From the NCBI RefSeq assembly GCF_030123505.1, contig NZ_CP126115.1, forward strand, positions 2,184,001 through 2,248,000: 64,000 nt of DNA. The letters run 5' to 3'. The notes beneath the pieces were generated by a model. That model made no database searches and was not told the DNA's origin. It worked only from the letters and a program-made list of their open reading frames with translations. Position numbers and translations under genes: made by a program. Shown piece by piece: positions 5,171 through 34,611 of the stretch; within the stretch, counting starts at the first letter, position 1; the number at the start of each line of letters is the position of its first letter. Origin of the DNA: Neobacillus sp. YX16 (GTDB lineage Bacteria; Bacillota; Bacilli; Bacillales; Cytobacillaceae).

Positions 5171-5242
5171 TGGTTTTCATCCCCTCGATTGCTTTATTTA
5201 TCATTATCGTATCGAATAATTTACAATAAGGAAAATAAATGA

Positions 5243-5260
5243 TTATTATAGTTATAATAA
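5243..5260. promoter_or_regulatory. Perfect palindrome between yeiH and its LysR neighbour
   Basis: TTATTATA-GT-TATAATAA is an 18-bp perfect dyad in the divergent promoter region, about 29 bp before the LysR start. Position and symmetry fit an operator for the neighbouring LysR protein, but AT-rich DNA makes chance palindromes more likely. Confidence 0.45.
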
Positions 5261-5288
5261 GTAAAAACGATATAAAGAAGGTGAACGT

Positions 5289-6229: not shown

Positions 6230-6298
6230 TAGAAGTGAATGTAGAGAACATGGAAGCTCCAGCATGAACTTGGATATGTTGAACATTACTTTTGTATA

Positions 6299-6362
6299 TT
6301 AGCGATTGTTATATACAAGTTAAAATCTTTAATTTTATTTAATTATTATTTATGAGTATACT
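6299..6362 (+). promoter_or_regulatory. Island promoter copy A (LysR box, dyad, -10) for ligase-TauD1-MFS1
   Basis: The LysR-type box TTAGCGATTGTTA is at 6299-6311 (T-N11-A). The 17-bp dyad TAAAATCTTTAATTTTA is at 6321-6337 and a TATACT -10 is at 6357-6362. Box to dyad is 22 bp and dyad to -10 is 36 bp, identical to the five other copies in the island. There is no good -35, as expected for an activator-dependent promoter. Confidence 0.8.
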
Positions 6363-6395
6363 TAATGTAGTAATATTTAAAATATTCACAATAGT

Positions 6396-6411
6396 AAGCG
6401 TATAAACGCTT
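6396..6411. promoter_or_regulatory. 16-bp palindrome in the ligase leader
   Basis: AAGCGT-ATAA-ACGCTT is a perfect dyad about 40 bp downstream of the -10 and just ahead of the ribosome binding site. It resembles an imperfect CcpA cre site (11 of 14 consensus positions when read from 6393), in a roadblock position like the perfect cre of the cupin gene. Confidence 0.4.
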
Positions 6412-6440
6412 CTAAGTGAGGAAAAGGGGTGGAATTCTTG

Positions 6441-7955
6441 ATGAGTAATAATCTATACGAAAATCTGAAAAAAAGCGCAAGTAATTTCCCAGAAAGTATC
6501 GCTTATATCTATAGTGATAAAAGTGTTACTTATAGGGAACTAAATCAGCAGGTGGATCAATTGGCTGCTGGATTGTCTGCCCAAGGAATAGGGAAGGGAG
6601 ATGGAGTGGCTCTTTTATTAGGAAATAGCCCTGAATTTCTCATTGCGTACTACGGCATTTTACGACTAGGTGCATTTGTTATACCGATTAATCCTTTGTT
6701 TACCCAAGGGGAAATCAGCTACATATTAGATAATAGTCAAGCCAAAGCGGTCATTGCTCACGTATCCGTAGAGCCGAAGTTATCAGAAGTAAAGAAACAA
6801 TTGAAAAATCTAAAGTTAGTCATTTATACCGATGCCGAGAATCAGGAATGGACATGGGAACATCTCATGGCAACAAGCCTGAATGTTTGTGGAAGCCTTT
6901 ACATTGATCAAGAAGACCTTGCAGTCATTCTGTACACGTCAGGTACTACCGGGAAACCAAAGGGTGCGATGTTATCACATCGGAACTTAGCATCGAATGC
7001 AGACTCTATTTCAAAATTACTTGAACTCAATGAAAATGGCCGTGTAGTAGCTGTCCTGCCAATGTTTCATGTTTTCTGTATGACAGTTTGTTTGAATGCA
7101 CCAATTGCTTGTGGAGCAACAGTCCTGATCCAGCCTAGATTCAGCCCTGTCGATGTGGTCAACACCATTCGAGAAAGAAAGGCAACTGTGTTTGCAGGCG
7201 TACCTACGATGTACAGTTTTATCAATCAATTACCTGAAGCGATTGCGGAGGATTTCCAATCTATCCGCATTTGTATCTCTGGAGGTGCCTCGATTCCGGT
7301 CGAGCTGCTGCATAAATTTGAAAACAAGTTTAACGTTTCAATCTTAGAAGGATATGGACTTTCGGAAACAGCCCCTCTCGTTGCGATTAATCCATTAAAA
7401 GGAACTCGCAAACCAGGTTCTATCGGCCTGAATATTCCAGCTGTCCTAAGCAAAGTGGTAGATGAGTTCGGTAAAGAATTGCCGAGAGGTGAAGTCGGAG
7501 AGTTAGTTGTTCAAGGGCCAAATGTAATGAAGGGATATTTGGGGATGCCGAAAGCTACATCAGCAGCTTTTAAAGACGGGTGGTTTTACACCGGTGATCT
7601 CGCAACAATGGATGAAGAAGGATACATTTACATTGTTGACCGTAAGAAGGACATGATTATTGTTGGCGGTTACAATGTATATCCTCGTGAAGTAGAGGAA
7701 GTCCTGTATCAGCATCCTGCCATTGTCGAGGCGGCCGTAATTGGAGTTCCTGATGGAGAATACGGAGAAAGCGTAAAAGCATACGTCGTAGTTAAGGATG
7801 AGCAGATTACAATAAATGACATTATCCAATTTTGTAAGGAAAGACTCGTGAAGTACAAGCTTCCTAAACAAGTGGAGTTTTTTAAAGAGCTGCCTAAGAA
7901 CTCGACAGGGAAGATTTTGCGCAGAGAGTTAAGAGAATTGACCGAAGTAAAGTAA
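6441..7955 (+). CDS. Acyl-CoA synthetase (long-chain fatty-acid--CoA ligase family)
   Basis: This is an ANL-superfamily enzyme that activates a carboxylic acid with ATP to an acyl-AMP and then to the CoA thioester. It has 504 residues. Visible motifs are the P-loop YTSGTTGKPKGAMLSH near residue 165, EGYGLSETAP near 305, the YTGDLA hinge region near 380, DRKKDMIIVGGYNVYPREVE near 400, and the C-terminal catalytic lysine in PKNSTGKILRREL. ATG 6441 is preferred, with AAGGGGTGG eight bases upstream; GTG 6429 is in frame but poorly placed. It is the first gene of the unit that continues into TauD1 and MFS1. The acid it accepts is unknown; context suggests the island's own substrate. A second copy has decayed to a scar at 13826-13926. 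Confidence 0.9.
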   Translation: MSNNLYENLKKSASNFPESIAYIYSDKSVTYRELNQQVDQLAAGLSAQGIGKGDGVALLLGNSPEFLIAYYGILRLGAFVIPINPLFTQGEISYILDNSQAKAVIAHVSVEPKLSEVKKQLKNLKLVIYTDAENQEWTWEHLMATSLNVCGSLYIDQEDLAVILYTSGTTGKPKGAMLSHRNLASNADSISKLLELNENGRVVAVLPMFHVFCMTVCLNAPIACGATVLIQPRFSPVDVVNTIRERKATVFAGVPTMYSFINQLPEAIAEDFQSIRICISGGASIPVELLHKFENKFNVSILEGYGLSETAPLVAINPLKGTRKPGSIGLNIPAVLSKVVDEFGKELPRGEVGELVVQGPNVMKGYLGMPKATSAAFKDGWFYTGDLATMDEEGYIYIVDRKKDMIIVGGYNVYPREVEEVLYQHPAIVEAAVIGVPDGEYGESVKAYVVVKDEQITINDIIQFCKERLVKYKLPKQVEFFKELPKNSTGKILRRELRELTEVK

Positions 7956-7988
7956 GAAAATAACTAAATTATTATAGGGGGATTACTT

Positions 7989-9044
7989 ATGTCAACCATT
8001 TTAAAGGAAAAAGTTAAAGGTCCAGTAGGTTGGAAAGGCACTGACCTGGCTAAAGATGAATCATGGGTTTATTATTTGTCCGAAAAAACGATTGCTTCAC
8101 TTGATAACGCTTTAGCACATGTTAAACAAAAGGGTTTAAAAGCACCTGATTTTAACAAGGAGGACTTCCCGATTTCAGATCTCTTAGATGAAATCGATTA
8201 CTTTGTTGAAGAGCTGGAGAATGGGAGAGGATTTCTATTAATTCGCGGATTACCAATTGAAAGGTATACAGATGAAGAAGCCAGTATCATTTACTGGGGT
8301 CTCGGCCTTCATATGGGAACACCAGTGTCGCAAAACGCTAATGGTGATCTTTTAGGACACGTTAGGGATCAAGGTCTTAGCTTGGAAAATTCAAATGTAC
8401 GCGGTTACCAAACAAAACTGCATCTTCCTTTTCACGCGGATGGATCTGACGTTGTCGGATTGTTAAGCCTGCGAAAAGGGAAATCCGGAGGTTACAGCAG
8501 TATCATCAGCTCGATGACTGTTTATAATGAAATTCTGGAGAAGAACCCCGAATATTTAGGAATTCTCTGTCGCCCATTTAACTTTGATCGTCGTGGAGAG
8601 GAAGCGCCAGGAGAATCTCCAGTATTTACATCACCAATCTTCAGTTATTATGATGGAAAATTGAGCTGCCGATATGTCCGTTTATTTATCGAATCAGCCC
8701 AAGCGAAAACAGGTATCCAGCTGTCGAAAGTTGAAATTGAAGCATTAGACTTACTGGATTCCCTCCTTCATGATGAAAAGTTGCATTATAATATGTTGCT
8801 GGAGGAAGGGGATATGCAATTCGTCAATAATTATACGGTTCTTCACTCACGTACTCAATATGAAGACTATGAGGAACTGGATCGAAAACGTCATTTATTA
8901 AGATTGTGGCTTACGATGCCAAATGGACGGGAAATTTCCCCGGATTTCGCGATGTTTATTGATGAGAATACGGGGAAACCGGGTCGCGGCGGTGTACCTC
9001 CTCGTAAACAAACAGCTGGCGGTATTGTAGAAACTTTGAAGTAA
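7989..9044 (+). CDS. TauD/TfdA-family Fe(II)/2-oxoglutarate dioxygenase, paralogue 1
   Basis: This 351-residue predicted non-haem iron dioxygenase should couple decarboxylation of 2-oxoglutarate to hydroxylation or cleavage of an organic substrate in the cytoplasm. The facial triad is visible as His149-Ala-Asp151 (FHADGSD) and distal His286 (VLHSRT), with Arg305 (RHLLRLW) placed to bind 2-oxoglutarate. It is longer than classical TauD (about 280 residues), with about 75 extra N-terminal residues before GRGFLLIRGLP. An RGEEAPGESPV loop is shared by all three paralogues in this window. It lies 33 bp after the ligase and 95 bp before MFS1. The substrate is unknown, and nothing points to taurine specifically. 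Confidence 0.85.
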   Translation: MSTILKEKVKGPVGWKGTDLAKDESWVYYLSEKTIASLDNALAHVKQKGLKAPDFNKEDFPISDLLDEIDYFVEELENGRGFLLIRGLPIERYTDEEASIIYWGLGLHMGTPVSQNANGDLLGHVRDQGLSLENSNVRGYQTKLHLPFHADGSDVVGLLSLRKGKSGGYSSIISSMTVYNEILEKNPEYLGILCRPFNFDRRGEEAPGESPVFTSPIFSYYDGKLSCRYVRLFIESAQAKTGIQLSKVEIEALDLLDSLLHDEKLHYNMLLEEGDMQFVNNYTVLHSRTQYEDYEELDRKRHLLRLWLTMPNGREISPDFAMFIDENTGKPGRGGVPPRKQTAGGIVETLK

Positions 9045-9139
9045 TTTTGCTTCAACATTTCGTAAGAACGAGTGGGAACACCTTTTCAGATTTTAGGAAA
9101 ATGTGTTCCTTATATGGGAAAAAGTGAGGATATATATAT

Positions 9140-10429
9140 ATGTCAAGCACTCCAAAGTATTCTTGGATTATTTTATTATTTCTAGTTCTTTCCGGTATGA
9201 TCAACCAGGTAGATAAAATTATCATTGGTTTAGTTTCCGTTCCTTTAATGAAAGAGTTACATTTAAGTCCTTCGCAATGGGGAATTGTAGGAAGTTCATT
9301 CTTTTGGTTCTTTACCTTCTCCTCTTTCATTCTTGGAGGCATGGCCGATTCCAAAAACACGAAAAAAATGTTATCGTGGATTTCTTTGATTTGGTTGATT
9401 GTTCAATTTACAACCCCTTTCGTTTCTAGTTTGTCTCTGCTTGTGTTAACAAGAATGATTTTGGGAGCAGGTGAAGGTCCAGCTCCCGCTCTATCTACAG
9501 CAATCATAGGAAAATGGTTCCCTAAACATAGACACGGAATAGGCTTTGGTGCTGTTCTCTTAGGAACGACAGGGGGTTCAGCGATTGCTTCGCCATTATT
9601 AATCTCCTTGATTGAACAATATGGATGGAGATCTGCATTTATTGCCATGGGTATTCTTGGCCTGATTGTGTTAGTTTTATGGCAGATTTTCGGTAAAGAA
9701 AGTCCAAAAGAAATCGGGCTGTCTGACATTCATCAAAAGGAGCAACAGTCGTCTAGCCTCACTAAGGTTTCATGGCGTCAGTTTTATCCGCATCTTTTAT
9801 CTAAAAATTTTATTTTGACCGTTTTGTGCGGTGGGTGTGCTTATTGGTTATTGTCCGTTCAAGCGGTATGGTTTCCAGCTTACTTTGCCAAAATTCAACA
9901 GTTTAATGGTCAAACATTAAAACTAGCTGTGTCTTTACCTTTTCTTTTTGCAGCTTTTTGCCAATTTGGATTTGCTTTGCTTTCAGACCGGCTTTATCGT
10001 AAATCAGGAGATATTCGCAAAGCACGAATTAATCTTGCTGGTTTGATGATGGTGTTATCCGCTTTATGTATATATCTAGCAAATACCGTGACTTCAACGT
10101 CTATGTCCATAATATTCTTTACCCTTGCACCCGGTTTTGCGTATGTCATTCTTTCTCTCGCGCCCGCTATATTGATGGAGTTTTTTTCTCCTCAAAACAT
10201 TGGAAAGGCACAAGGGGCGTTCATTGCTCTTGCAAGTACAACTAGTATTATTGCTCCACTTGTCTTTGGATATCTTATCCAAAATGCAGGGACTGAGGCA
10301 ATAGGTTATGGTTATGCGTTTCAAGCCTCTTCTATAGGGATGCTGATTATCGGACTATTATTTTGGATCGGTGTACGTCCCGCAAAGCAAGGCCACACAA
10401 TGATTGAAGCAGAGGAGAAAATAAGTTAA
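9140..10429 (+). CDS. MFS transporter, anion:cation symporter type, paralogue 1
   Basis: This major facilitator protein of 429 residues and about 12 membrane segments resembles the anion:cation symporter family (hexuronate, phthalate, glucarate and similar organic acids). Typical features are the early DKIIIG segment, GGMADSKNTKKM as the loop 2-3 motif, and RMILGAGEGPAPALSTAIIGKWFPKHRHGIG, a hallmark stretch of that family, around residues 108-140. It follows TauD1 and probably imports the island's acidic substrate. MFS2 (15172-16461) is a close paralogue in the same position after TauD3, and the two upstream spacers share a recognisable stretch, so the dioxygenase-carrier pair was duplicated together. 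AGTGAGGA is a moderate ribosome binding site. Confidence 0.88.
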   Translation: MSSTPKYSWIILLFLVLSGMINQVDKIIIGLVSVPLMKELHLSPSQWGIVGSSFFWFFTFSSFILGGMADSKNTKKMLSWISLIWLIVQFTTPFVSSLSLLVLTRMILGAGEGPAPALSTAIIGKWFPKHRHGIGFGAVLLGTTGGSAIASPLLISLIEQYGWRSAFIAMGILGLIVLVLWQIFGKESPKEIGLSDIHQKEQQSSSLTKVSWRQFYPHLLSKNFILTVLCGGCAYWLLSVQAVWFPAYFAKIQQFNGQTLKLAVSLPFLFAAFCQFGFALLSDRLYRKSGDIRKARINLAGLMMVLSALCIYLANTVTSTSMSIIFFTLAPGFAYVILSLAPAILMEFFSPQNIGKAQGAFIALASTTSIIAPLVFGYLIQNAGTEAIGYGYAFQASSIGMLIIGLLFWIGVRPAKQGHTMIEAEEKIS

Positions 10430-10512
10430 AAATAATATTTTTATATAATTGAAAATAATTAAAGTACAAAAATAGTAAATTGGCAATAGTCCATTTTGAA
10501 GGAGGAGTTTTA

Positions 10513-11511
10513 ATGTCAATCATTTTAAATGAAAAAATCCAAGGGCGATCAGCATGGAAAGGTAGTGAACTAGCTAAAGATGAGTCATGGATTTATTATT
10601 TGTCCGAGAACACGATTGCTGCTCTTGAGAAGGCAGTATTGCATGTTCAACAAAAGGGATTAACAGCACCTGATTTTAAAAAGGAGGATTTCCCGATTAT
10701 TGATTTAGCTGACGAAATTAAATACTTTGTTGACGAGCTGGAGAATGGAAGAGGATTTCTATTGATTCGTGGATTGCCAATGGACCAGTTTACTGACGAA
10801 GAAGCGAGCATCATTTACTGGGGTCTCGGACTTCACTTGGGACTACCGATAATCCAAAGCAAAACTGGGGAACTCTTAGGGCATATCAAAAACGTAGGTA
10901 AAGACTTTAGTGATAATACAAAAGTACGTGGTTACCAAACGAATGTACATCTTGATTATCACACAGATCTCGCTGATGTGGTTGGATTACTATGTCTTAA
11001 GAAAGCGAAATCTGGCGGTTTAAGCAGTATCGCAAGTGCGATGTCGATCTATAATGAAATTTTGGAGAAGCACCCAGAGTACCTTGAAATTCTCTATCGT
11101 CCATTTGCCCATGATCTTCGCGGGGAAGAAGCACCTGGTCAATCTCCAGTAGTTCAAACACCGATCTTTAGCTATTACGATGGTAAATTAAGCTGCAGAT
11201 ATATTCGCCAATATGTCCAATCAGCACAAACGAAAACAGGGATCCCTTTGTCGGAAGAGGAAATCGAAGCATTTGATTTTATCGATTCCCTTACTCATGA
11301 TGAAAACTTCCATATTGATATGATGATGGAACCGGGTGATATGCAATTCGTTAATAATTATACCGTTTTTCACTCACGGACTCATTTTGAAGATTACGAA
11401 GAAGATGACAAGAAACGCCATCTATTAAGATTATGGCTCATGATGCCAAATGGCCGGAAAATTGCCCCAGATTTCGAGTTTTATATCGGCGGGGTACCTG
11501 TAGAAAGATAA
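10513..11511 (+). CDS. TauD/TfdA-family dioxygenase, paralogue 2, C-terminally shortened
   Basis: This is the second paralogue, 332 residues, with the iron site intact: His150-Thr-Asp152 (YHTDLAD), a distal His in VFHSRT and an Arg in RHLLRLWL. It is more diverged than paralogues 1 and 3, with ASAM and HDLRGEEAPGQSP in place of SSM/SSV and DRRGEEAPGESP. The protein ends at GGVPVER; the codons after the stop still read KAGGSI, matching TAGGI and TAGAI in the other two, so the tail was lost through an in-frame stop. About eight residues before that (DENTGKPGR) are also missing. ATG 10513 is supported by GGAGGAG six bases upstream. It has no island promoter of its own and probably relies on transcription from the ligase unit. 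Confidence 0.85.
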   Translation: MSIILNEKIQGRSAWKGSELAKDESWIYYLSENTIAALEKAVLHVQQKGLTAPDFKKEDFPIIDLADEIKYFVDELENGRGFLLIRGLPMDQFTDEEASIIYWGLGLHLGLPIIQSKTGELLGHIKNVGKDFSDNTKVRGYQTNVHLDYHTDLADVVGLLCLKKAKSGGLSSIASAMSIYNEILEKHPEYLEILYRPFAHDLRGEEAPGQSPVVQTPIFSYYDGKLSCRYIRQYVQSAQTKTGIPLSEEEIEAFDFIDSLTHDENFHIDMMMEPGDMQFVNNYTVFHSRTHFEDYEEDDKKRHLLRLWLMMPNGRKIAPDFEFYIGGVPVER

Positions 11512-11559
11512 AAAGCTGGTGGTAGTATTAAACACCATTATTTCTTATATCAAGTGAGA

Positions 11560-11602
11560 TGGTGATTTTATTCAACGAAATATGGTGGATAAAATCACCA
11601 TT
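11560..11602 (+). terminator. Hairpin between TauD2 and the hydrolase
   Basis: GGTGATTTTAT pairs perfectly with ATAAAATCACC around a 17-19 base loop, and ATTTTATG follows. The weak T-run makes it an attenuator or processing site as easily as a full terminator. Confidence 0.45.
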
Positions 11603-11691
11603 TTATGTATTTAAATGCCATATGACCGGAATAAAAGGTTAGGATATAGCCGAGTTATTTTTAAAATTAATTGAAGTGAGGATGATGCTCC

Positions 11692-12636
11692 TTGGTAAAT
11701 TTAGATCCGCAAGCAGAAAAATATTTACAAGCATTTAATCAGATGCGGCCTATTCATAAAATGGATCCTAAGACTGTTAGGGATTTACTTTCGAAAGCAC
11801 CGCGCCCTGCTGTAAAATTAGAACCTCTATCAAAGGTAGAGGATTTGATGCTTACAGTAAGCCTGGATGAAGAAATTAAATGTCGGGTGTACATACCAGA
11901 AGGGCAAGGTCCCTTTCCCCTATTTATATACTACCATGGTGGGGGATGGGTTCTCGGAGACATTGAATCGACGGATGCGAGCTGTCGAATGATCGCAAAT
12001 AGAACGGAAAGTATTGTTGTATCCGTAAACTATCGTCTTGCACCAGAGTATAAGTTTCCGACTGCAGTCGAAGACGCGTATGCGGCTTTGGAATGGGTGT
12101 ATGAAAAAGGGTCTTCCTTTAACGGAGATGTATCTAGATTGGCAGTCGGAGGGGATAGCGTAGGTGGAAATCTAGCAACAGTAGTTACGATGATGGCGAG
12201 AGACAGAAAAGGTCCCGACATCACTGCTCAGGTCTTACTTTATCCTCCGACAAACCTTGAGTGCAATACGGAATCCCATCAAACATTTGCAAAAGGATTT
12301 GGTCTGGATCGCGAACAGCTGATTTGGTTCCGTGATCATTATTTAAGGAATGAAGAGGACAGGTGTAATGAGTACGCTTCCCCCTTGGTCGCTGAAGATT
12401 TAAGTGGCCTCCCACAAGCATTAGTAATCACAGCGGAAAATGATGTGCTTCGGGATGAAGGAAGGGCTTATGCTGATCGTCTGAAAAAATTTGGTGTGCA
12501 GGTTGAATATGCATGTGAACCCGGTATGGTACACGGCTTTTTTGGACACATGGCTATTTTCTCTAACAACATTGAATCAACTGTTACTAAGATCGACAAA
12601 TTCCTACGTACAGCAAAATATTCGATAAAAATCTAA
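11692..12636 (+). CDS. Alpha/beta hydrolase of the hormone-sensitive lipase family
   Basis: This is a predicted carboxylesterase or lactonase of 314 residues from the HSL (family IV) group. The oxyanion-hole motif HGGG is in YYHGGGWVLGD (near residue 82). The nucleophile Ser is in GGDSVGGNLA (near 155), Asp in NDVLRDEG (near 248) and His in MVHGFFG (near 280). Translation starts at TTG 11692, with GTGAGGA eight bases upstream; the nearby ATG codons are out of frame. It follows TauD2 after a hairpin and is closed by a strong terminator. A role in hydrolysing an ester or lactone form of the island substrate is plausible but only inferred. Confidence 0.88.
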   Translation: MVNLDPQAEKYLQAFNQMRPIHKMDPKTVRDLLSKAPRPAVKLEPLSKVEDLMLTVSLDEEIKCRVYIPEGQGPFPLFIYYHGGGWVLGDIESTDASCRMIANRTESIVVSVNYRLAPEYKFPTAVEDAYAALEWVYEKGSSFNGDVSRLAVGGDSVGGNLATVVTMMARDRKGPDITAQVLLYPPTNLECNTESHQTFAKGFGLDREQLIWFRDHYLRNEEDRCNEYASPLVAEDLSGLPQALVITAENDVLRDEGRAYADRLKKFGVQVEYACEPGMVHGFFGHMAIFSNNIESTVTKIDKFLRTAKYSIKI

Positions 12637-12640
12637 ATGA

Positions 12641-12675
12641 AACGAGCCTCACAATTTAATGAGGCTCGTTTTTTA
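12641..12675. terminator. Terminator after the hydrolase
   Basis: AACGAGCCTCA (12641-12651) pairs with TGAGGCTCGTT (12660-12670), followed by T residues. Confidence 0.85.
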
Positions 12676-12742
12676 TATTATATATTTTCATAGACTATTA
12701 ATTGGCAATCTATGAAACAGTTAACAGTAACAACCAAGTATG

Positions 12743-13516
12743 TTAGAAATAAACGGTATTTCCAATGCCGCCAGTTACCGGAATAACATCGCCAGTAATC
12801 GATGCCGCCAAAGGTGAAGCCAGGAAGGTAACGACATAAGCAATTTCCTCTGCAGTTATCAAGCGGCCGAGGGAATTCAGTGATTCTACATGGCGTATAG
12901 CTTCCTCATTCGTGACCCGGCCTCTAAACGTTTCTGTATCGACGATCCCTGGATAAACAGCATTAACGTTAATTCCGTGCTTTCCTAATTCCAATGAGGC
13001 GGATTTCGTCATATGGACAACAGATGCATTACGCGGACCGGAACTAAAATAATTGCCGCCAATTCTAGCAGCCAGACCACTTATATTTATTATACGGCCC
13101 CATTTATTTTCTATCATATAAGGTGCAACCGCTCGGATACAGCGAAAATAGCCCATGTACTTTTCTTCAAAATCTTTCAAAATAAGTTCATCTTTAATAC
13201 TATAAAAATCCTCTGGCTCCTGGCCGCCAACACGGGCTCCGCTGTTGATTAATATATCAATGCTTCCCATTGCTGCTGCTGACTTTTCTACTAGATTTAA
13301 GATAGAGTTAGGATCAGTGGTATCTGCCACGATCGGATAGATATTTCGCTTCGTTTCTTGTGCCAATTCCTCTGCTGCGGTCTTTAGAGTGGATTCGGTT
13401 CTTGAACAAATCGTACAATCTACACCTTCTAGAGCCAGCTGGCGGGCAATAGCTTTACCAATACCACGACTTCCTCCAACAATAAGTGCCTTTTTTCCGG
13501 ATAACTTTAAGTCCAT
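12743..13516 (-). CDS. Atypical SDR-family protein lacking the YxxxK motif
   Basis: This 257-residue short-chain dehydrogenase/reductase-fold protein begins its cofactor site with VGGSRGIGKAIA (near residue 14) and has an NSGAR segment in place of the usual NNAG. The active-site region is unusual. After the NISG serine strand, the place where Tyr-x3-Lys is expected reads SGPRNASVVHMTKS, so Tyr and Lys are replaced by Ser and Asn in my alignment. The C-terminal PVTGG is normal. The protein either uses different catalytic residues or is a non-classical SDR. ATG 13516 is chosen because AGGAGGT lies five bases upstream; an extension to 13540 lacks this. It is transcribed away from TauD3 from its own copy of the island promoter. 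Confidence 0.82.
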   Translation of the reverse strand: MDLKLSGKKALIVGGSRGIGKAIARQLALEGVDCTICSRTESTLKTAAEELAQETKRNIYPIVADTTDPNSILNLVEKSAAAMGSIDILINSGARVGGQEPEDFYSIKDELILKDFEEKYMGYFRCIRAVAPYMIENKWGRIINISGLAARIGGNYFSSGPRNASVVHMTKSASLELGKHGINVNAVYPGIVDTETFRGRVTNEEAIRHVESLNSLGRLITAEEIAYVVTFLASPLAASITGDVIPVTGGIGNTVYF

Positions 13517-13592
13517 AGTTGACCTCCTGATTTGATTCACTAGTAAAAAGCTGATAGTGATTTTTTTGAATATTGATTCTTTTCTTTATTTG

Positions 13593-13656
13593 ATTCTACC
13601 TTTAAATAATATTTATATAAAATTAAAGATTTTAATTTGTACTTTAGTTGTACTAA
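13593..13656 (-). promoter_or_regulatory. Island promoter copy C (minus strand) for the atypical SDR
   Basis: Read on the minus strand: LysR box TTAGTACAACTAA (13656-13644), exact dyad TAAAATCTTTAATTTTA (13634-13618) and -10 TAGAAT (13598-13593). The 22- and 36-bp offsets are the same as in the other copies. Confidence 0.8.
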
Positions 13657-13710
13657 TATAAAATAATGTTGAAATTTTCCATTGTACATGGGGGCCACTA
13701 TTTTTATATA

Positions 13711-13774
13711 TTAGTATTATTTACATACAAGTTAAAATCTTTAATTTTATTTTACTGAAAATTATGAATATAAT
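13711..13774 (+). promoter_or_regulatory. Island promoter copy B for the TauD3 unit
   Basis: The LysR box TTAGTATTATTTA is at 13711-13723, the exact dyad TAAAATCTTTAATTTTA at 13733-13749 and the -10 TATAAT at 13769-13774. It stands back to back with copy C, 55 bp apart. Confidence 0.8.
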
Positions 13775-13782
13775 TAACATAA

Positions 13783-13800
13783 TGACTATTAACATAGTCA
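13783..13800. promoter_or_regulatory. Perfect palindrome at the likely TauD3 transcription start
   Basis: TGACTAT-TAAC-ATAGTCA is an 18-bp perfect dyad beginning nine bases after the -10. It could be an operator for a second regulator or a 5' RNA hairpin; no counterpart was seen at the other five promoters. Confidence 0.35.
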
Positions 13801-13825
13801 CAATGCTATTAAATATGTAAATAAA

Positions 13826-13926
13826 GGGGGGACATCGTTCAATAGTATTAATTGTATGAAGAAGATTTGTATAAGCGAGGGAGTCACTTTTTTAGTAGGA
13901 AACAACCCGAACATTGTCTACTACAG
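13826..13926 (+). pseudogene. Scar of a second acyl-CoA ligase gene
   Basis: The leader of TauD3 holds remains of a ligase like 6441-7955. AAAGGGG and the bases after it (13826-13870) align with the ligase ribosome binding site and first nine or so codons. Bases 13871-13924 then read ISEGVTFLVGNNPNIVYY, which lines up with IGKGDGVALLLGNSPEFLIAYY of the intact ligase (residues 50-71). So most of the gene has been deleted. It confirms that the ancestral unit was ligase-dioxygenase-carrier in both copies. Confidence 0.6.
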
Positions 13927-13962
13927 AAAAAAAGTGTATTAGAAAAAGAAGGAGGAGTATAG

Positions 13963-15018
13963 GTGCCGTCCATTTTAAAGGAAAAAATTCAAGGACCAGC
14001 AGCGTGGAAAGGTATTGATCTAACCAAAGATGATTCATGGATTTATTATTTGTCTGAGAAAACGATTGCGTCTCTTGAAAGCGCTTTATATTTTGTAAAA
14101 CAAAAGGGTTTAAAAGCACCAGATTTTAACAAGGAGGACTTCCCAATTCCTGATCTCTCTGATGAAATCGATTACTTTATTGGCGAGTTGGAAAATGGGA
14201 GAGGATTTCTGTTAATTCGTGGATTACCAATGGAAAGGTATACCGATGAAGAAGCAAGCATTATTTACTGGGGTCTCGGGGTACATTTGGGCATCCCGGT
14301 AACGCAAAACGCAAAAGGTGATCTATTAGGGCATGTCGTAGACCAAGGTCTGAACATTAATGATTCCAATGTACGCGGTTACCAAACGAATGCACATCTT
14401 CCCTTTCACCCAGATGGATCTGACGTAGTCGGATTACTAAGTCTACGAAAAGCTAAATCGGGGGGATTTAGTAGTATTGTTAGCTCGGTGGCTGTTTATC
14501 ATGAAATCCTGGAGAAGTACCCAGAGTACCTTGAAATTCTCTATCGTCCATACTTCTTGGATCGTCGTGGTGAAGAAGCCCCAGGTGAATCTCCAGTATA
14601 TTCATCACCAGTCTTTAGCTATTACAAAGGTAAATTGAGCTGCAGATATAATCGCGGATATGTCGAATCAGCACAAGCGAAAACAGGTATCCATTTGTCA
14701 AAGGAAGAAATAGAAGCATATGACTTAATGGATTCTCTCCTTCATGATGAAAACATGCATATCGATATGATGATGGAACCTGGTGATATGCAATTCGTAA
14801 ATAATTATACCGTTCTTCATTCACGAACTGTATATGAAGATTATGAAGAACCCGAACGCAAGCGTCATCTATTAAGATTGTGGCTCACGATGCCAAATGG
14901 GCGAGAAATTGCGCCCGATTTCGCTATGTTTATTGATGAGAAAACAGGTAAAGCGGGTCGCGGCGGTATTCCTATACGTGAAAAAACAGCTGGCGCTATT
15001 GGTGAAAGCATGAGGTAA
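13963..15018 (+). CDS. TauD/TfdA-family dioxygenase, paralogue 3
   Basis: This 351-residue dioxygenase is very close to paralogue 1 along its whole length. The iron ligands are His149-Pro-Asp151 (FHPDGSD) and the distal His in VLHSRT, with the 2-oxoglutarate Arg in RHLLRLWL. The middle residue of the HxD motif differs in each paralogue (Ala, Thr, Pro), as do neighbouring positions that would face the substrate, so specificity may differ. It starts with GTG 13963, five bases after GGAGGAG. MFS2 follows after 153 bp. It is transcribed from promoter copy B through a leader that contains the ligase scar. Confidence 0.85.
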   Translation: MPSILKEKIQGPAAWKGIDLTKDDSWIYYLSEKTIASLESALYFVKQKGLKAPDFNKEDFPIPDLSDEIDYFIGELENGRGFLLIRGLPMERYTDEEASIIYWGLGVHLGIPVTQNAKGDLLGHVVDQGLNINDSNVRGYQTNAHLPFHPDGSDVVGLLSLRKAKSGGFSSIVSSVAVYHEILEKYPEYLEILYRPYFLDRRGEEAPGESPVYSSPVFSYYKGKLSCRYNRGYVESAQAKTGIHLSKEEIEAYDLMDSLLHDENMHIDMMMEPGDMQFVNNYTVLHSRTVYEDYEEPERKRHLLRLWLTMPNGREIAPDFAMFIDEKTGKAGRGGIPIREKTAGAIGESMR

Positions 15019-15171
15019 TTGCTTTAATAAATATTAGGACTTTAAACATAGAAGATTTACCATTAAATACCTTTACTTAAGAAGACGAATTGCTTCATGT
15101 GATGGGAGTGCCTTGCAGATTTTACGAAAAGATGTTCTTTAAGTAGTAGATAAGAAGGGGAGAATTTTACA

Positions 15172-16461
15172 TTGAAAACACCAAAATATTCTTGGATTAT
15201 ATTATTAATTCTAGTTGCTTCCGGAATGGTCAACCAAATTGATAAAATTATCATTGGTTTAGTTTCCGTTCCCTTAATGAAAGAGTTACACTTAAGTCCT
15301 TCACAATGGGGAGTTATTGGAAGCTCATTCTTTTGGTTCTTTACCATCTCCTCTTTAATTATTGGTGGCATGGCCGATTCCAAAAACACGAAAAAAATGT
15401 TTACTTGGATCATGTTAGTATGGTTGGCTGTTCAATTTACCACACCTTTTGTTTCCAGTCTGTCTTTATTAATGTTTTCAAGAATGATCTTGGGAGCAGG
15501 AGAAGGTCCAGCGATTGCTATATCGACTTCTCTAATAGGAAAATGGTTCCCTAAACACAGACATGGTATAGGCTTTGGCGCTGTTCTCTTTGGAGCAGCA
15601 ATCGGACCAGCGATTGCTTCTCCATTATTAATCTCCTTGATCTCTCAAAATGGATGGAGATCTGCTTTTATTGCAATGGGCATTGTTGGATCTATTGTTC
15701 TAGTTTTATGGATGATTTTCGGAAAAGAAAGCCCAAATGAAATCGGGTTGCCTACAATTGAACATGAGGAAAAGAACTCATTCATCTCTTCTAAGGTTTC
15801 TTGGCGTCAATTTCTTCCACATCTTTTTTCAAAAAATTTTATGTTTACCGTTTTGTGTGCAGGTTGTGCCTATTGGTTATTGTCTGTTCAAGCGGTTTGG
15901 TTTCCAGCATACTTTACCAATGTTCAACATTTTGATGGAAAAACATTAAAAATGGCAGTGTCATTGCCTTTTCTTTTCGCTGCCATTTGCCAAATTGTCT
16001 TTGCCTTGATATCAGATCGGCTATATCGCAAAACAGGAGATATTCGAAAAGCACGAGTAAATCTTGCAGGTATTTCAATGATGCTATCCGCTATTTGTTT
16101 ATATCTTGGAAGTGTTGTGAATTCAAGTGCTATCTCCATCTTGTTCTTCATTCTTGCTCCAGGTTTTGCGATTGTTATTCTATCACTCGCACCCGCTATG
16201 TTGATGGAATTCTTTTCTACCAAAAACATTGGAAAAGCACAAGGGACATATGTTGCTCTATCAAGTTCAGCAAGTATTATTGCTCCAGTTATATTCGGGA
16301 ATTTTATCCAAAATTCAGGAACTGAGGTAATTGGATATGGTTATGGGTTCCTAGTAACTTCATTGGTTATGTTCGTTTTCGGATTATTTTTTTGGGCCAT
16401 TGTACGTCCTGCAAAGCAAACTGACACAACGATAAAAGCAGAGGAACAAGTTATTATATAA
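15172..16461 (+). CDS. MFS transporter, anion:cation symporter type, paralogue 2
   Basis: This 429-residue, 12-segment carrier closely matches MFS1. Shared segments include MVNQIDKIIIGLVSVPLMK, RMILGAGEGPAIAISTSLIG and KWFPKHRHGIGFGAVLF. Differences cluster in the segment after GEGPA and in the central cytoplasmic loop (around residues 185-205), where substrate range or regulation could diverge. Translation starts at TTG 15172 with AAGGGGAG upstream. The preceding spacer shares a GCAGATTTTACGAAAA-like stretch with the spacer before MFS1, which shows the duplication ran through the intergenic DNA. A very small CxxC protein gene follows. Confidence 0.88.
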   Translation: MKTPKYSWIILLILVASGMVNQIDKIIIGLVSVPLMKELHLSPSQWGVIGSSFFWFFTISSLIIGGMADSKNTKKMFTWIMLVWLAVQFTTPFVSSLSLLMFSRMILGAGEGPAIAISTSLIGKWFPKHRHGIGFGAVLFGAAIGPAIASPLLISLISQNGWRSAFIAMGIVGSIVLVLWMIFGKESPNEIGLPTIEHEEKNSFISSKVSWRQFLPHLFSKNFMFTVLCAGCAYWLLSVQAVWFPAYFTNVQHFDGKTLKMAVSLPFLFAAICQIVFALISDRLYRKTGDIRKARVNLAGISMMLSAICLYLGSVVNSSAISILFFILAPGFAIVILSLAPAMLMEFFSTKNIGKAQGTYVALSSSASIIAPVIFGNFIQNSGTEVIGYGYGFLVTSLVMFVFGLFFWAIVRPAKQTDTTIKAEEQVII

Positions 16462-16493
16462 AAAGTATGATTTAATCGAGGAGGGAAAGAAAT

Positions 16494-16667
16494 ATGTGTA
16501 AAAATAACAAGGCCATTAATGGAACTGATTGTTGTGTAGAATGTCATGAAGAATTAGCCATTATGGAGCGAAATCGCAGTAACTGCTGGAATTGTCAGGA
16601 TAAAATATCCGAGACTTACGCTGATGATCATATTGATGAAGAAGATGGAGTTAAATCGGTTGTATAA
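16494..16667 (+). CDS. 57-residue protein with two CxxC pairs, zinc-ribbon-like
   Basis: This short gene begins MCKNNKAINGTDCCVECHEE and ends at a TAA at 16665-16667. It has a strong GAGGAGGG ribosome binding site and lies 32 bp after MFS2, so it is probably translated from the same transcript. Two pairs, CVEC and CWNC, separated by 16 residues, look like the knuckles of a zinc ribbon or a small metal/redox site, and the C-terminal third is acidic (YADDHIDEEDG). I do not recognise a family. It could be a metal chaperone, an accessory factor for the iron dioxygenases or a regulator; none of these is shown. It is immediately followed by a strong terminator. Confidence 0.65.
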   Translation: MCKNNKAINGTDCCVECHEELAIMERNRSNCWNCQDKISETYADDHIDEEDGVKSVV

Positions 16668-16732
16668 TAGAAAATGAATCTATGATATGCGATGGATCTT
16701 GTCCATGGTACCAAAAACTAATAGATTCATAT

Positions 16733-16782
16733 AAAAAGAGAAGCTCTGCGTCCATTTCGGACGAAGTTGCTTCTCTTTTTTG
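16733..16782. terminator. Terminator between the TauD3 unit and the convergent LysR gene
   Basis: AAAAAGAGAAGC (16733-16744) pairs with GCTTCTCTTTTTT (16769-16781), with an inner GTCC/GGAC stem. A and T runs on both sides allow it to work in both directions. Confidence 0.85.
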
Positions 16783-16784
16783 TC

Positions 16785-17690
16785 TTAACTTTTTATCATT
16801 TCGGATTTTAGATAATGAATATATTTGTTGGCAAAAGCCGATAAATGCTTATTCTCTGATCGCACCAATCCTAAAGAAATATTTACTGTCGGATGATTTA
16901 CGAGATCAACTGGAATTATCTCACCATTCATTACATGGGGATAATTTTTCATTACGAAATCAGGAGCAAATGTAATGGCCAAATTTTCTCTGACTGCTTG
17001 GAGAACACCATCCATATTATTTGATGTAAATAGTATTTTTAAGGGCTTATATTTGTTAAAGAAATCTTGAACAAAATACTGCATAAATTCACCTTTATAA
17101 GTGACGAGAGTTTGGTCCAGTATATCATGCGGAGTAATGGTACCTAAGAATGCTAAAGGTGAGTGCTTTGAAACATATACTTTCTGCTTTCCTTCAATGA
17201 GTGCTTCAAAAGCTATTCCTTCCATGTTTACGTTCAAATCCGTTGAATATGTAATCAGACCGAAATCAGTTTTATGTTGTCGAACATCTTCAATTACAGT
17301 GGATCCACTTTTTTCTGCAACCTCCAAATTTACGTGTGGATAATCATGTCTAAACGCAGCTATAGCTTTTACTAGGAAAGTCATCAACCCTGGTAATGAA
17401 GATATTTTTAGTTCCCCAAGTTCAGTCGAAGTAAGTAAGTTGGCTGTCTCTTTTATTTCATCAAGTTTTTTCTGTACTTCATAGGCAAGCTTTAGAATGA
17501 TTCTGCCTTCATCGGTTGGGACAGCACCATGTCCCCGTGACCGTTTAAGAATTTTAATCCCTAGCTCCTTTTCAAAGTTGGTAATGGACTGACTGATTGT
17601 GGATTGAGTTACATGTAGATTCTGTGCCGCAATAGACAGAGAATTGTATTTAGCAACTTCAACGATATATAGTAATTGTTCAATATTCAT
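16785..17690 (-). CDS. LysR-family regulator, candidate activator of the island
   Basis: This 301-residue LysR protein has a winged helix at about residues 1-60 (IEQLLYIVEVAKYNSLSIAA, then TQSTISQSITNFEKELGIKI) and an effector domain that includes LGELKISSLPGLMTFLVKAI. It is the only regulator inside the catabolic island. It is divergent from an SDR gene, and the shared 142-bp region contains promoter copy D, whose LysR box lies only about 22 bp from this gene's start codon, as expected for an autoregulated LysR protein. AAGGGG precedes its ATG. Control of all six island promoters is an inference from position and motif type. Confidence 0.88.
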   Translation of the reverse strand: MNIEQLLYIVEVAKYNSLSIAAQNLHVTQSTISQSITNFEKELGIKILKRSRGHGAVPTDEGRIILKLAYEVQKKLDEIKETANLLTSTELGELKISSLPGLMTFLVKAIAAFRHDYPHVNLEVAEKSGSTVIEDVRQHKTDFGLITYSTDLNVNMEGIAFEALIEGKQKVYVSKHSPLAFLGTITPHDILDQTLVTYKGEFMQYFVQDFFNKYKPLKILFTSNNMDGVLQAVRENLAITFAPDFVMKNYPHVMNGEIIPVDLVNHPTVNISLGLVRSENKHLSAFANKYIHYLKSEMIKS

Positions 17691-17711
17691 TGCTGTACCC
17701 CTTTTTCAATA

Positions 17712-17775
17712 TTAGTAAAACTTATATACATATTAAAATCTTTAATTTTATTTCATTATAATTTATTAGTACAAT
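17712..17775 (+). promoter_or_regulatory. Island promoter copy D between LysR and SDR
   Basis: The LysR box TTAGTAAAACTTA is at 17712-17724, the exact dyad TAAAATCTTTAATTTTA at 17734-17750 and the -10 TACAAT at 17770-17775. A further 15-bp palindrome, AGATTTTTAAAATCT, lies at 17787-17801 before the SDR start. Confidence 0.8.
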
Positions 17776-17832
17776 CAATATCAATAAGATTTTTAAAATC
17801 TTTGAATATTCTTAATTAGGGGGAAATGTAAA

Positions 17833-18621
17833 ATGTCATTAAAACAATTGTTTGATTTAACCGGACAGACAGCAATCGTTACCGGAGGCGGAAGTGGTCT
17901 AGGGCGTGTAATGGCACTGGCTTTAGCAGAGGCAGGTGCAAATGTTGTAGTATGTTCTCGTCGATTAGAGGTTTGTGAAGAAGTTGTAAAAGAAATTGAG
18001 GCATTAGGAAAACAAGCACTTGCTCTAGTGGTTGATGTCACAAATCCTGAATCAGTCGTTCAAGGTTTGGAGAAAGCGGTTTCTCATTTTGGGAAAATCG
18101 AGATTTTAGTCAACAGCAGCGGAACGGTTTTTGAAACGCCTGCTACTGAAATGCCTTTAAATCAATGGCAAGCTATGCTTGATACAAATGTGACTGGTAC
18201 ATTCTTGATGTGTCAAGCTGTAGGAAAACAAATGATCGAAAACGCATACGGAAAAATTATTAACATTTCTTCTAGTATTGGTTTTAAAGGTGTTGACCCA
18301 GAAGCAGTAGATTCTGTAGGGTATACAACTAGTAAGGGTGCCGTTATGACTTTAACGAAGGATCTTGCAGTTAAGTGGGGTCGCCATGGAGTGTATGTAA
18401 ATTCCATTGCTCCTGGAGTGTTCACTACTGGAATGAATAACCCAGAAATACCGGGAACACTTGTACACAAAGCAGGTCCTTTCATTGCTTCCCAAGTTCC
18501 AGTTAGAAGGCTAGGCAATGACAATGATTTAGTAGGTGCTCTCCTATACTTTGCTTCAGCGGCTTCTAATTATTGTACGGGACAAATATTGGTTCTTGAT
18601 GGGGGCCTTGGGGCTAAGTAA
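17833..18621 (+). CDS. SDR-family oxidoreductase
   Basis: This classical short-chain dehydrogenase/reductase of 262 residues has TGGGSGLGR (near residue 18) binding the dinucleotide. An Arg-Arg pair after VVCSRR suggests NADP(H) preference. The catalytic Ser is in NISSSIG and Tyr-x3-Lys is complete in GYTTSKGAV. The C-terminus GQILVLDGG is standard for the gluconate-5-dehydrogenase-like and 3-oxoacyl reductase-like groups. It could oxidise a hydroxy intermediate of the island pathway. It might also supply acetoacetyl-CoA reductase activity, since no dedicated phaB gene accompanies the polyhydroxyalkanoate genes; neither role is proven. It has its own promoter (copy D) and a weak GGGGGAAAT ribosome binding site. 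Confidence 0.88.
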   Translation: MSLKQLFDLTGQTAIVTGGGSGLGRVMALALAEAGANVVVCSRRLEVCEEVVKEIEALGKQALALVVDVTNPESVVQGLEKAVSHFGKIEILVNSSGTVFETPATEMPLNQWQAMLDTNVTGTFLMCQAVGKQMIENAYGKIINISSSIGFKGVDPEAVDSVGYTTSKGAVMTLTKDLAVKWGRHGVYVNSIAPGVFTTGMNNPEIPGTLVHKAGPFIASQVPVRRLGNDNDLVGALLYFASAASNYCTGQILVLDGGLGAK

Positions 18622-18649
18622 ATTCCATCCAAATAACGAGCAGTGTAAA

Positions 18650-18713
18650 TTAATCAAACTTAATTGCACATTAAAAATGTTAATTTTACTTAGCTGAAAA
18701 TTAAAAATATACT
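18650..18713 (+). promoter_or_regulatory. Island promoter copy E for the cupin gene
   Basis: The LysR box TTAATCAAACTTA is at 18650-18662, the dyad variant TAAAAATGTTAATTTTA (14 of 17 matches) at 18672-18688 and the -10 TATACT at 18708-18713. It is the most diverged copy in sequence, yet the 22- and 36-bp offsets are kept exactly. Confidence 0.75.
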
Positions 18714-18750
18714 GAGATTATAAATTCGAAAAAGTTAATTAGCTGACTTT

Positions 18751-18764
18751 TGTAAGCGTTAACA
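18751..18764 (+). promoter_or_regulatory. Predicted CcpA cre site in the cupin leader
   Basis: TGTAAGCGTTAACA matches the cre consensus TGWAANCGNTNWCA at every position. It begins 43 bp after the start of the -10, downstream of the expected transcription start, where CcpA would act as a roadblock. This predicts repression of the cupin gene by preferred sugars. Confidence 0.65.
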
Positions 18765-18805
18765 GCATGCGAATTTAAAAACATATAATGGAAGAGGGAA
18801 TTTTA

Positions 18806-19282
18806 GTGAGTAATGTAAAAAATGTACAAGCAGCAGTAGCATATCATGCAGGAAATGTTAATGTAGATGAATTGCCTTGGGTTCCTTATTTCGGAGATGC
18901 GAAATTTAAATTGCTTAAAGCCAATCCTGTGACAGGACAGAATATTACCTTATTATATGTACCTGCGAAAATGCAACTTCCGGCACATTTTCATCCTGGA
19001 CAAGTCATTGTTTATACTGTTCAAGGATCTTGGAGATATCTCGAGGAGTCTTGGATCTCCAAACCTGGCGACATGGTTTTTGAACCTGCCGGCTCCACAC
19101 ATACACCTACAGCTGTAGGGGATGAAGATGTTATTACCTTCAATATTGTGGAAGGAACATTAGACTATTTGGGTGAGAATGGAGAAATTATTGCACGAGA
19201 TAATTGGGAATCATTCCTGAAAAGATACCTTGACTATTGTGAGGCTGAAGGAATTGAACCAGTTGATGTGACTGCGTTTTAA
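18806..19282 (+). CDS. Cupin of the 2,4'-dihydroxyacetophenone dioxygenase type
   Basis: This 158-residue single-domain cupin resembles 2,4'-dihydroxyacetophenone dioxygenase, a non-haem iron enzyme that cleaves the C-C bond between carbonyl and hydroxymethyl carbons of an aromatic hydroxyketone. The first metal motif is HFHPGQVIVYTVQG with two His. Glu residues follow 17-18 positions later in YLEESW, and a third His is in PAGSTHTP, giving the three-His-plus-Glu set of this cupin group. GTG 18806 is preferred, with GAAGAGGGA seven bases upstream; ATG 18788 has no site. It is a single-gene unit with promoter copy E, a cre site and a terminator. The true substrate may be another alpha-hydroxy or 1,3-dicarbonyl compound. 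Confidence 0.78.
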   Translation: MSNVKNVQAAVAYHAGNVNVDELPWVPYFGDAKFKLLKANPVTGQNITLLYVPAKMQLPAHFHPGQVIVYTVQGSWRYLEESWISKPGDMVFEPAGSTHTPTAVGDEDVITFNIVEGTLDYLGENGEIIARDNWESFLKRYLDYCEAEGIEPVDVTAF

Positions 19283-19297
19283 TTAATAAATCTGTAA

Positions 19298-19347
19298 TAA
19301 AAAGAGAAGCCCGGTGTCCAAGTGACGACGAGGCTTCTCTTTTTTTA
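19298..19347 (+). terminator. Terminator after the cupin gene
   Basis: AAAAGAGAAGCC pairs with GGCTTCTCTTTT, followed by a T-run. The outer stem is nearly the same as in the terminator at 16733-16782. Confidence 0.85.
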
Positions 19348-19407
19348 TGCGCAACTTTTATTAATTCTAGTAAATTAGAAAAATTGATAGTTTTCACTAT
19401 CACTATA

Positions 19408-19471
19408 TTAGTAATACTAACTTATATATTAAAATGTTTAATTTTATTTAATTTATACTAATGAGTATAAT
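19408..19471 (+). promoter_or_regulatory. Island promoter copy F for the third SDR
   Basis: The LysR box TTAGTAATACTAA, a perfect dyad, is at 19408-19420. The dyad TAAAATGTTTAATTTTA (one mismatch) is at 19430-19446 and the -10 TATAAT at 19466-19471. Spacing is identical to the other copies. Confidence 0.8.
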
Positions 19472-19533
19472 CAATAATATAATAATATTTATAAATTTTA
19501 GAATTTTCCAAACGAAAAGGGGCTAAAAAACAT

Positions 19534-20316
19534 ATGCCAACAGAAACAGTTTTGATTACAGGCGCTACTAAAGGGATCGGTTTGGAATTCGCAAAAGTTT
19601 TCGCTGACCATCGCTATAACTTGGTATTAGTTGCCAGGGACGCAACGTTGTTGGAACAACAAGCTGAAATATTACAAAAGGATTATGGAGTTCAAGTAAA
19701 TACTTTTGCCGGTGACTTAAGCAACCATGTAACAGTAGAGAACTTACATAAGTACTTGAAAAACGAAGGAATCAACATAGATATTTTGATTAATAATGCC
19801 GGGGCTGGCGGATTAGGGTTAATGACGGAATTGGATATTAAGAAAGAATTGGAATGCCTGCAGCTCAACATGATATCGCTTACATATTTAACCAGACTTA
19901 TAGCGGATGAAATGGTAAAACGAAAGCAAGGTAAAATTTTAAACGTGGCTTCAACAGCGGCCTTTCAGCCAACTCCAGGGATGTCGATGTATGGGGCAAG
20001 CAAATCGTACGTCTTAACCTTTTCAGAAGCGATTGCGGAAGAACTAAAAGGAACCGGAGTTCAAGTTAGTGTACTATGTCCCCCTTCAACCAAAACGCCG
20101 CTCACGGAAGGATTGGCCGCAACAGGAACAAAAATTTTCATTAAGAATTTGATGGAACCAGAAGCAGTTGTCAAGTGCGGCTTTGAAGGGTTAATGAAGA
20201 ATAAAACAGTGATCATCCCAGGCTTTAAAAATAAACTTATGGCTAAATCTGTGGGACTGCTGCCAAGGAAATGGGTAACCATCTATACCCGAAAGATGAT
20301 CGAGCAAAAAGTGTAA
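19534..20316 (+). CDS. SDR-family oxidoreductase, DltE/YqjQ-like
   Basis: This 260-residue short-chain dehydrogenase has TGATKGIGLEFA (near residue 9) at the cofactor site and VARD at the end of strand 2, suggesting NADP(H). ILINNAGAGG, NVAST and MYGASKSYV give the complete Asn-Ser-Tyr-Lys set. The C-terminus (LLPRKWVTIYTRKMIEQK) lacks the usual DGG ending. It resembles the DltE/17-beta-hydroxysteroid dehydrogenase-like branch, whose members often reduce or oxidise lipophilic ketones and alcohols. It is driven by promoter copy F and closed by a modest terminator. It probably handles a hydroxy/keto step of the island pathway. Confidence 0.87.
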   Translation: MPTETVLITGATKGIGLEFAKVFADHRYNLVLVARDATLLEQQAEILQKDYGVQVNTFAGDLSNHVTVENLHKYLKNEGINIDILINNAGAGGLGLMTELDIKKELECLQLNMISLTYLTRLIADEMVKRKQGKILNVASTAAFQPTPGMSMYGASKSYVLTFSEAIAEELKGTGVQVSVLCPPSTKTPLTEGLAATGTKIFIKNLMEPEAVVKCGFEGLMKNKTVIIPGFKNKLMAKSVGLLPRKWVTIYTRKMIEQKV

Positions 20317-28470: not shown

Positions 28471-28541
28471 CGGAGCAGTAAATAATGCGATTTGATAATG
28501 GCTTTATTTTATCAATTAAATATGGTAAGGGGTGGAGAGTT

Positions 28542-34589: not shown

Positions 34590-34611
34590 TTTTTTCCTCT
34601 CCTTTAATGAA

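Follow-up and report, generated by a model that had tools for sequence, protein, structure and literature searches.

The DNA analysed here, termed the window, is a stretch of 64,000 nucleotides of the soil bacterium Neobacillus sp. YX16 (contig NZ_CP126115.1, positions 2,184,001 to 2,248,000), and it carries a putative catabolic island in which the genes are preceded by copies of one promoter element, composed of a 13-bp box, a dyad and a -10 hexamer. The protein encoded at 16785-17690 on the minus strand, a LysR-type regulator by its Pfam matches to HTH_1 (58.1 bits, cut-off 26.6) and LysR_substrate (95.3 bits, cut-off 28), is proposed as the reader of all seven copies found in the genome. 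With considerable confidence it can be predicted to control at least seven transcription units of the island through this rigid bipartite operator. The operator set is real and conserved and very probably forms a LysR regulon, as a sequence-only reading of the window had proposed.

The offsets from box to dyad (22 bp) and from dyad to -10 hexamer (36 bp) are exact in all six promoters of the window, and the six box starts are those given earlier, i.e. 6299, 13711, 17712, 18650 and 19408 on the plus strand and 13656 on the minus strand. Operator-promoter A (6296-6365, plus; box 6299-6311, dyad 6321-6337, -10 TATACT 6357-6362) precedes the acyl-CoA ligase operon. Operator-promoter B (13708-13777, plus; box 13711-13723, -10 TATAAT 13769-13774) precedes dioxygenase C and a carrier, and stands back to back with C (13590-13659, minus; box 13644-13656, -10 TAGAAT 13593-13598), which precedes a short-chain dehydrogenase/reductase (SDR) gene. 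Operator-promoter D (17709-17778, plus; box 17712-17724, -10 TACAAT 17770-17775) lies between the LysR gene and an SDR gene, its box starting 22 bp from the LysR start codon. E (18647-18716, plus; box 18650-18662, -10 TATACT 18708-18713), the most divergent copy, precedes the cupin gene, and F (19405-19474, plus; box 19408-19420, -10 TATAAT 19466-19471) precedes another SDR gene. The six promoters are all real, and the genome total is seven: a further site, G, is found some 5 kb upstream of the window, in front of an SDR gene resembling that of D. The offsets are exact at all seven sites, each of which faces a gene with its start codon 62-194 bp beyond the first base of the -10. The suspicion that A and B are duplicates stands to the extent that the two may share descent, as may D and G; C, E and F precede other genes.

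The specificity of the element is evident from the separation of its scores from background. An 85-bp matrix built from the six window sites gives them 72-94 bits, and nothing else in the window exceeds 10.6. In leave-one-out rounds the omitted site still scores from 31.6 (E) to 73.3 bits, while non-sites reach at most 13.7 among the nine matches listed in each round. Site G was first located by the dyad pattern, and its 88 bits in the six-site matrix are thus out of sample. A profile built from the seven sites and run over the single 6.23-Mb contig of the genome, where it scored 150 of 3037 first-look candidates, gives 48.6-60.1 bits to the six sites, 61.8 to G and 14.3 to the next place. The clean gap in bit score and the fixed spacing show that the motif does not recur at random over the genome. 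The seven-site matrix reaches a maximum of 4.5 bits on 6.2 Mb of first-order Markov sequence with the statistics of the window, and of 15.1 bits on 1 Mb of AT-rich sequence with those of the operator regions. Chance origin of the element is rejected on the window matrix, the genome scan and these controls.

No single part of the element is diagnostic. The dyad pattern, with up to two mismatches, has 15 matches in the whole genome, six of which are sites A-D, F and G, and the reversed pattern has 12; the pattern alone is not significant by count, whereas the full element is. When a site is left out, its box alone is ranked first at the right place in three of seven cases (in B and C the box of the neighbour outranks it, in E it is second, and in A it falls outside the first three), and its -10 alone in four of seven. 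Specificity resides in the combination.

The regulator was searched for in genome contigs (12 loci), in 61 genomes of the genus and in 397 of the order, and sites were mapped in 18 genomes (Neobacillus, Peribacillus, Gottfriedia, Sporosarcina globispora, Lysinibacillus and others), where the same element recurs in other Bacillales. The 100 sites retained comprise the six window sites, set by hand with exact spacing, and 94 scanned at a score of at least 38, in a cross-genome scan that penalises a change of spacing by 4 bits and is slightly biased to exact spacing. Both distances are exact in 97 of the 100 sites, the box-to-dyad distance in 98 and the dyad-to--10 distance in 99. The departures are one additional base between box and dyad in site D of two Peribacillus loci (L085 and L086), and a dyad-to--10 distance differing by 2 in one weak site (L083:18444). 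The sites L086:17979 and L089:14718 (both below 38) are uncounted, and so is an E-type site, L086:9049, with 40.8 bits in one scan and absent from the mapping scan, where its dyad probably failed the first cut. The mapping excludes 119 LysR relatives, and in several genomes it covers part of the island only. The genomes G022, G056, G125 and G453 stand outside the 18 mapped, as do six genomes of the order sample that carry the regulator (G082, G160, G240, G244, G312 and G358); L088 and G375 together count as one genome.

Base counts from 95 of the 97 exact sites, those with full 140-bp stretches, place the conserved block at offsets of about -3 to +66, including TACA at 15-18, and conservation drops off outside it. 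The block thus extends beyond box, dyad and -10 hexamer. The box is an imperfect palindrome of 13 bp with T and A at its ends (T-N11-A type). The consensus proposed for it earlier, TTAGTNNNACTAA, is found exactly in two of the six window sites (C and F) only; across the 95 sites the box is closer to TTAGTAATACTTA.

The distribution of the regulator further argues for its role. It was called at E ≤1e-100 in the genus and at E ≤1e-90 in the order, where five candidates were scored per genome, and at least three genomes (G000, G010 and G011) belong to both samples. Site searches that took in more than 40 genomes ran under stricter filters, with only a few candidates scored in each genome (71 in the genus, 11 in the order), and their site counts are lower bounds. 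The regulator is present in 8 of the 61 genus genomes, and all eight carry 6-8 site matches; among the 53 genomes without it, two have one match each. One of these (G022; L138:7878-8308) is a 94-bit operator before an SDR gene that survives as broken pieces, with the regulator not found in that genome, and it is a relic of the regulon. The other (G056) is a weak match that begins 19 bp away from where a different LysR gene, of 36% identity, starts. In the order sample the regulator is present in 12 of 397 genomes, 11 of them with 4-7 matches and the twelfth (G453) with one weak match (E 0.0024), and 13 of the 385 genomes without it have weak matches only (E 2.4e-5 to 0.0099).

Two distant and nearly bare loci bear on the same point. 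In Lysinibacillus xylanilyticus (L090) no island genes other than the regulator and the cupin were recognised around the site, which has 40.5 bits by the matrix and precedes the cupin. The locus of G453 (L143) has likewise kept these two genes, and its one other island match is an SDR of 35% identity; its site, also in front of the cupin, is weaker. One genome (G140) carries the regulator twice, and each copy has a divergent operator to itself. The 22 bp between operator D and the regulator start codon vary only from 21 to 23 bp in the relatives compared, S. globispora excepted. A LysR paralogue of 45% identity was considered as the reader and rejected: it is present (E ≤1e-90) in 10 of the 61 genus genomes, seven of which have no site match, and five of the eight site-rich genomes lack it. 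The fixed spacing, the LysR-like arrangement of the promoters and the proposal of the 16785-17690 protein as the LysR of the regulon survive the genome scan, leave-one-out, conservation between genera, co-occurrence, the paralogue control and the two nearly bare loci. A literature search found no published description of this regulator, which is not proof that none is in print.

Several observations weigh against this assignment. Regulator and sites usually lie in one island, and their co-occurrence is partly joint inheritance. Orthologous sites are mutually non-independent, and it was by way of the regulator that most of the 18 genomes came to be included. Neither L090 nor L143 has a site next to the regulator, the site in L143 has 20 bits and did not pass the cross-genome matrix scan, and in S. 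globispora the divergent site is 448 bp from the regulator. The dyad, as centred here, is in our reading not itself a T-N11-A palindrome, and a candidate promoter of the regulator gene, described below, is absent in 4 of the 17 sequences examined.

Another regulator of the island could read the operators, the LysR protein encoded at 5289-6173, just upstream of A, being one example. Its gene lies directly before operator A and has its counterpart in the matching place in two other loci (L147 and L152), and partially at the edge of a third (L079). In the genome G375 (L145, L146), however, the counterpart of the gene at 4130-5170 still adjoins site A and six operators persist, while no orthologue of the 5289 gene is present in the 36 kb covered (best match there 25% identity). 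It also has no match in L090 or L143; the search took in the island loci and not the rest of the genomes, and several of the loci end before its expected place. Control by this protein is very unlikely.

The element may also be thought of as a mobile or duplicated promoter cassette, copied with its genes and forming no functional regulon. The most alike motifs are those of D and G, before paralogous SDR genes, and A and B precede similar dioxygenase-carrier units; the 94-bit site beside the decayed gene of G022 indicates that a copy can persist for some while after its function is lost. Pairwise identity among the seven promoters is, however, 60-87% inside the motif as against 15-52% in the 60-bp flanks, and the element is recognisable across genera. 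The divergent operators B and C provide an internal control for the geometry: the distance between their box starts drifts from 51 to 104 bp across the mapped loci (111 in S. globispora, with a weak uncounted site), whereas the internal spacing is fixed. In the rearranged loci L089 and L141 the operators travel with their genes. A cassette of this kind is scarcely to be credited. That an alternative sigma factor uses the element as an extended promoter, with no activator, has a probability close to negligible: it does hold a conserved -10 and extends to the -35 position, and L. xylanilyticus has an open reading frame that we read as ECF-sigma-like about 4 kb from its site (L090:7619-8209), but the element spans about 70 bp, reaching up to -73 with dyad symmetry far upstream of the core promoter contacts, and it tracks one LysR gene, though no systematic search for sigma genes was made.

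Control by the 16785-17690 protein also fits the layout of the promoters. On the assumption that transcription begins 12 bp beyond the first base of the -10, the box would be centred at -64 and the dyad at about -40 in all seven sites, in line with the positions near -65 and -40 predicted earlier, and conservation ahead of the -10 region would extend from about -73 to -24 by our reckoning. In LysR promoters a T-N11-A motif is often found near -65 within a target of 50-60 bp, and divergence of the regulator gene from its target is described as common (PMC8407307). BhbR1 of Pigmentiphaga has a footprint from -75 to -22, with a high-affinity distal and a low-affinity proximal site (PMC12016517). 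The predicted operator layout agrees with these published promoters (PMC8407307, PMC12016517), in which a distal palindrome near -65, a second site over -35 and a target of 50-60 bp are described. The BhbR1 system as described differs in that seven separately controlled units are present here, each with a full bipartite operator. In contrast to the weak proximal site reported for BhbR1 (PMC12016517), the proximal dyad here is conserved no less strongly than the distal box (1.22 as against 1.01 bits per base over the 95 sites), though conservation is not affinity.

In the mechanism proposed, one dimer of a regulator tetramer would occupy the distal box (centre about -64) and the other the dyad (centre about -40), where it would replace a -35 element, and the inducer-bound regulator would recruit RNA polymerase to the -10. 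The LysR gene itself has a candidate promoter (17755-17784, minus; TTGATA-N18-TATAAT), which overlaps operator D and is found in 13 of the 17 sequences. Given this overlap and the 22 bp between D and the start codon, occupied D should repress the regulator's own gene, a classical LysR autoregulation. Two overlapping dyads were also considered as a sliding track, and this was dropped because copies B and E do not keep the arrangement.

Among the NCBIfam equivalogs, CidR, GltC, CysB and AlsR belong to the same family as the regulator; the best model, CidR, gives 131 bits against a cut-off of 415, and GltC (103 against 350), CysB (97.5 against 436) and AlsR (84.5 against 430) also fall far below theirs, so that the scores do not identify the regulator with any of the four. 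The 45%-identical paralogue in the same genome (G000:C1:2150947-2151828) is divergent from a paralogue of the ligase (69%) in a locus at 2150947-2153453 (L154:4947-7453). The architecture of its promoter is similar, but the sequences of box and dyad are different from those of the regulon, and the promoter is not among the 23 matches of profile R1 in this genome.

The spacing, however, recurs. Nine genus members of this paralogue, at about 80% identity or higher, have a box centred 52 bp ahead of the -10, which is the spacing of the regulon operators, and this box is the best palindrome in eight of the nine and tied for best in the other; exactly 52 arises in 16 of 4000 trials of random AT-rich sequence. 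The nine are mutual orthologues and amount to about one event. One further locus (L139/L164, 36% identical to the regulator) has 52 bp and another (L165) has 53, while in L170 (a LysR of 46% on the Priestia megaterium plasmid NZ_CP085434.1) 52 bp occurs only as the third-ranked palindrome. The LysR gene of this plasmid locus is divergent from acyl-CoA dehydrogenase, CoA-transferase and AMP-binding genes. In L167 (G050, LysR 43%) the 17-bp dyad of site F recurs unchanged in the divergent promoter, 36 bp ahead of TATAAT, with no box palindrome at 52 bp. No 52-bp fit was found in L163 (50%), L040 (42%), L041 (35%) or L042 (33%). The paralogue spacing is a lead towards a shared ruler and not a proof of it. 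It is tentatively possible that these proteins form a fixed-ruler LysR group, in which box sequence and targets differ among paralogues while a constant 52 bp separates the box centre from the -10; the proximal site would be a strong conserved dyad, activation may need none of the dimer sliding known from other LysR regulators, and the ruler would have been copied to seven or eight promoters in the regulon. The odds given to this were lowered somewhat because L163, the closest relative examined, lacks a 52-bp box.

The units behind the operators comprise an acyl-CoA ligase, three TauD-family dioxygenases, two MFS carriers, an alpha/beta hydrolase and a cupin, together with four SDRs, of which one is encoded outside the window. 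On the plus strand, the AMP-forming acyl-CoA ligase (6441-7955) was identified by family searches, the TauD/TfdA-family dioxygenase A (7989-9044) by a family search and a PDB sequence search, and MFS carrier a (9140-10429) by a family search. These are followed by dioxygenase B (10513-11511), which resembles A by reading of the translations, and the alpha/beta hydrolase (11692-12636; Abhydrolase_3, and above the LipP1 cut-off). The SDR under C (12743-13516, minus) was assigned by a family search. Dioxygenase C under B (13963-15018, plus) and MFS carrier b (15172-16461, plus) resemble dioxygenase A and carrier a, respectively, by reading of the translations. On the plus strand again, the SDR under D (17833-18621) and the SDR under F (19534-20316) come from family searches and the cupin (18788-19282) from Cupin_7; acyl-CoA dehydrogenase and beta-oxidation-type genes follow the last SDR. 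Among solved structures the dioxygenase is closest in sequence to FrbJ (5eqn) and to a predicted hydroxylase (7n7v), and the sequence relatives of the cupin in the PDB include 2,4'-dihydroxyacetophenone dioxygenase. A degenerate operator-like stretch of 8.0 bits precedes dioxygenase B (10405-10471, plus). At the same spot G013 has a full operator (L149:9578) and two Peribacillus loci have weaker ones.

This enzyme set suggests that a small substrate, carbonyl or carboxylic in nature, is broken down oxidatively. An operator stands before CoA-transferase genes in five (L081, L082, L084, L147 and L152) of the seven mapped genomes that have these genes beside the regulator or carrier b, the other two being L085 and G013; in G013 an operator precedes a thiolase gene. 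The sites L149:3482, L081:12566, L084:12570 and L152:15618 all lie before thiolase or 3-oxoacid CoA-transferase genes. The CoA-transferase genes of the window (33936-35313) have no operator. The operators before 3-oxoacid CoA-transferase and thiolase genes in relatives suggest a flow to 3-oxoacyl-CoA, and from these a flow to a 3-oxoacid and acetyl-CoA may be inferred. A single pathway would unite all units, judging from co-regulation and gene families.

Three further features deserve mention. Within 4130-6173 of the window a gene that we take to be of YeiH type is divergent from a LysR gene, and the two apparently form a separate regulator-target pair. At 28057-29630, following acyl-CoA carboxylase-type genes, a small protein, possibly of PhaR type, is encoded beside a polyhydroxyalkanoate synthase (PhaC) of class III type. 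The related genes at 3211-4044 and L016:13190-13936 (51% identity), which we take from reading to be D-Ala-D-Ala carboxypeptidase-like, lie one near the start of the island and one beside site G.

The regulon is of the familiar LysR kind, and its distinctive feature is the rigid and uniform set of operators. The regulator now has a predicted operator, a predicted gene set and a record of conservation in several genera of Bacillales, and its binding, its inducer and the pathway become directly testable. With up to eight site matches per genome in relatives, as against seven here, these natural operators of the same spacing, together with a paralogue of the same spacing and another sequence, make a good system for questions of rigid spacing and dimer sliding.

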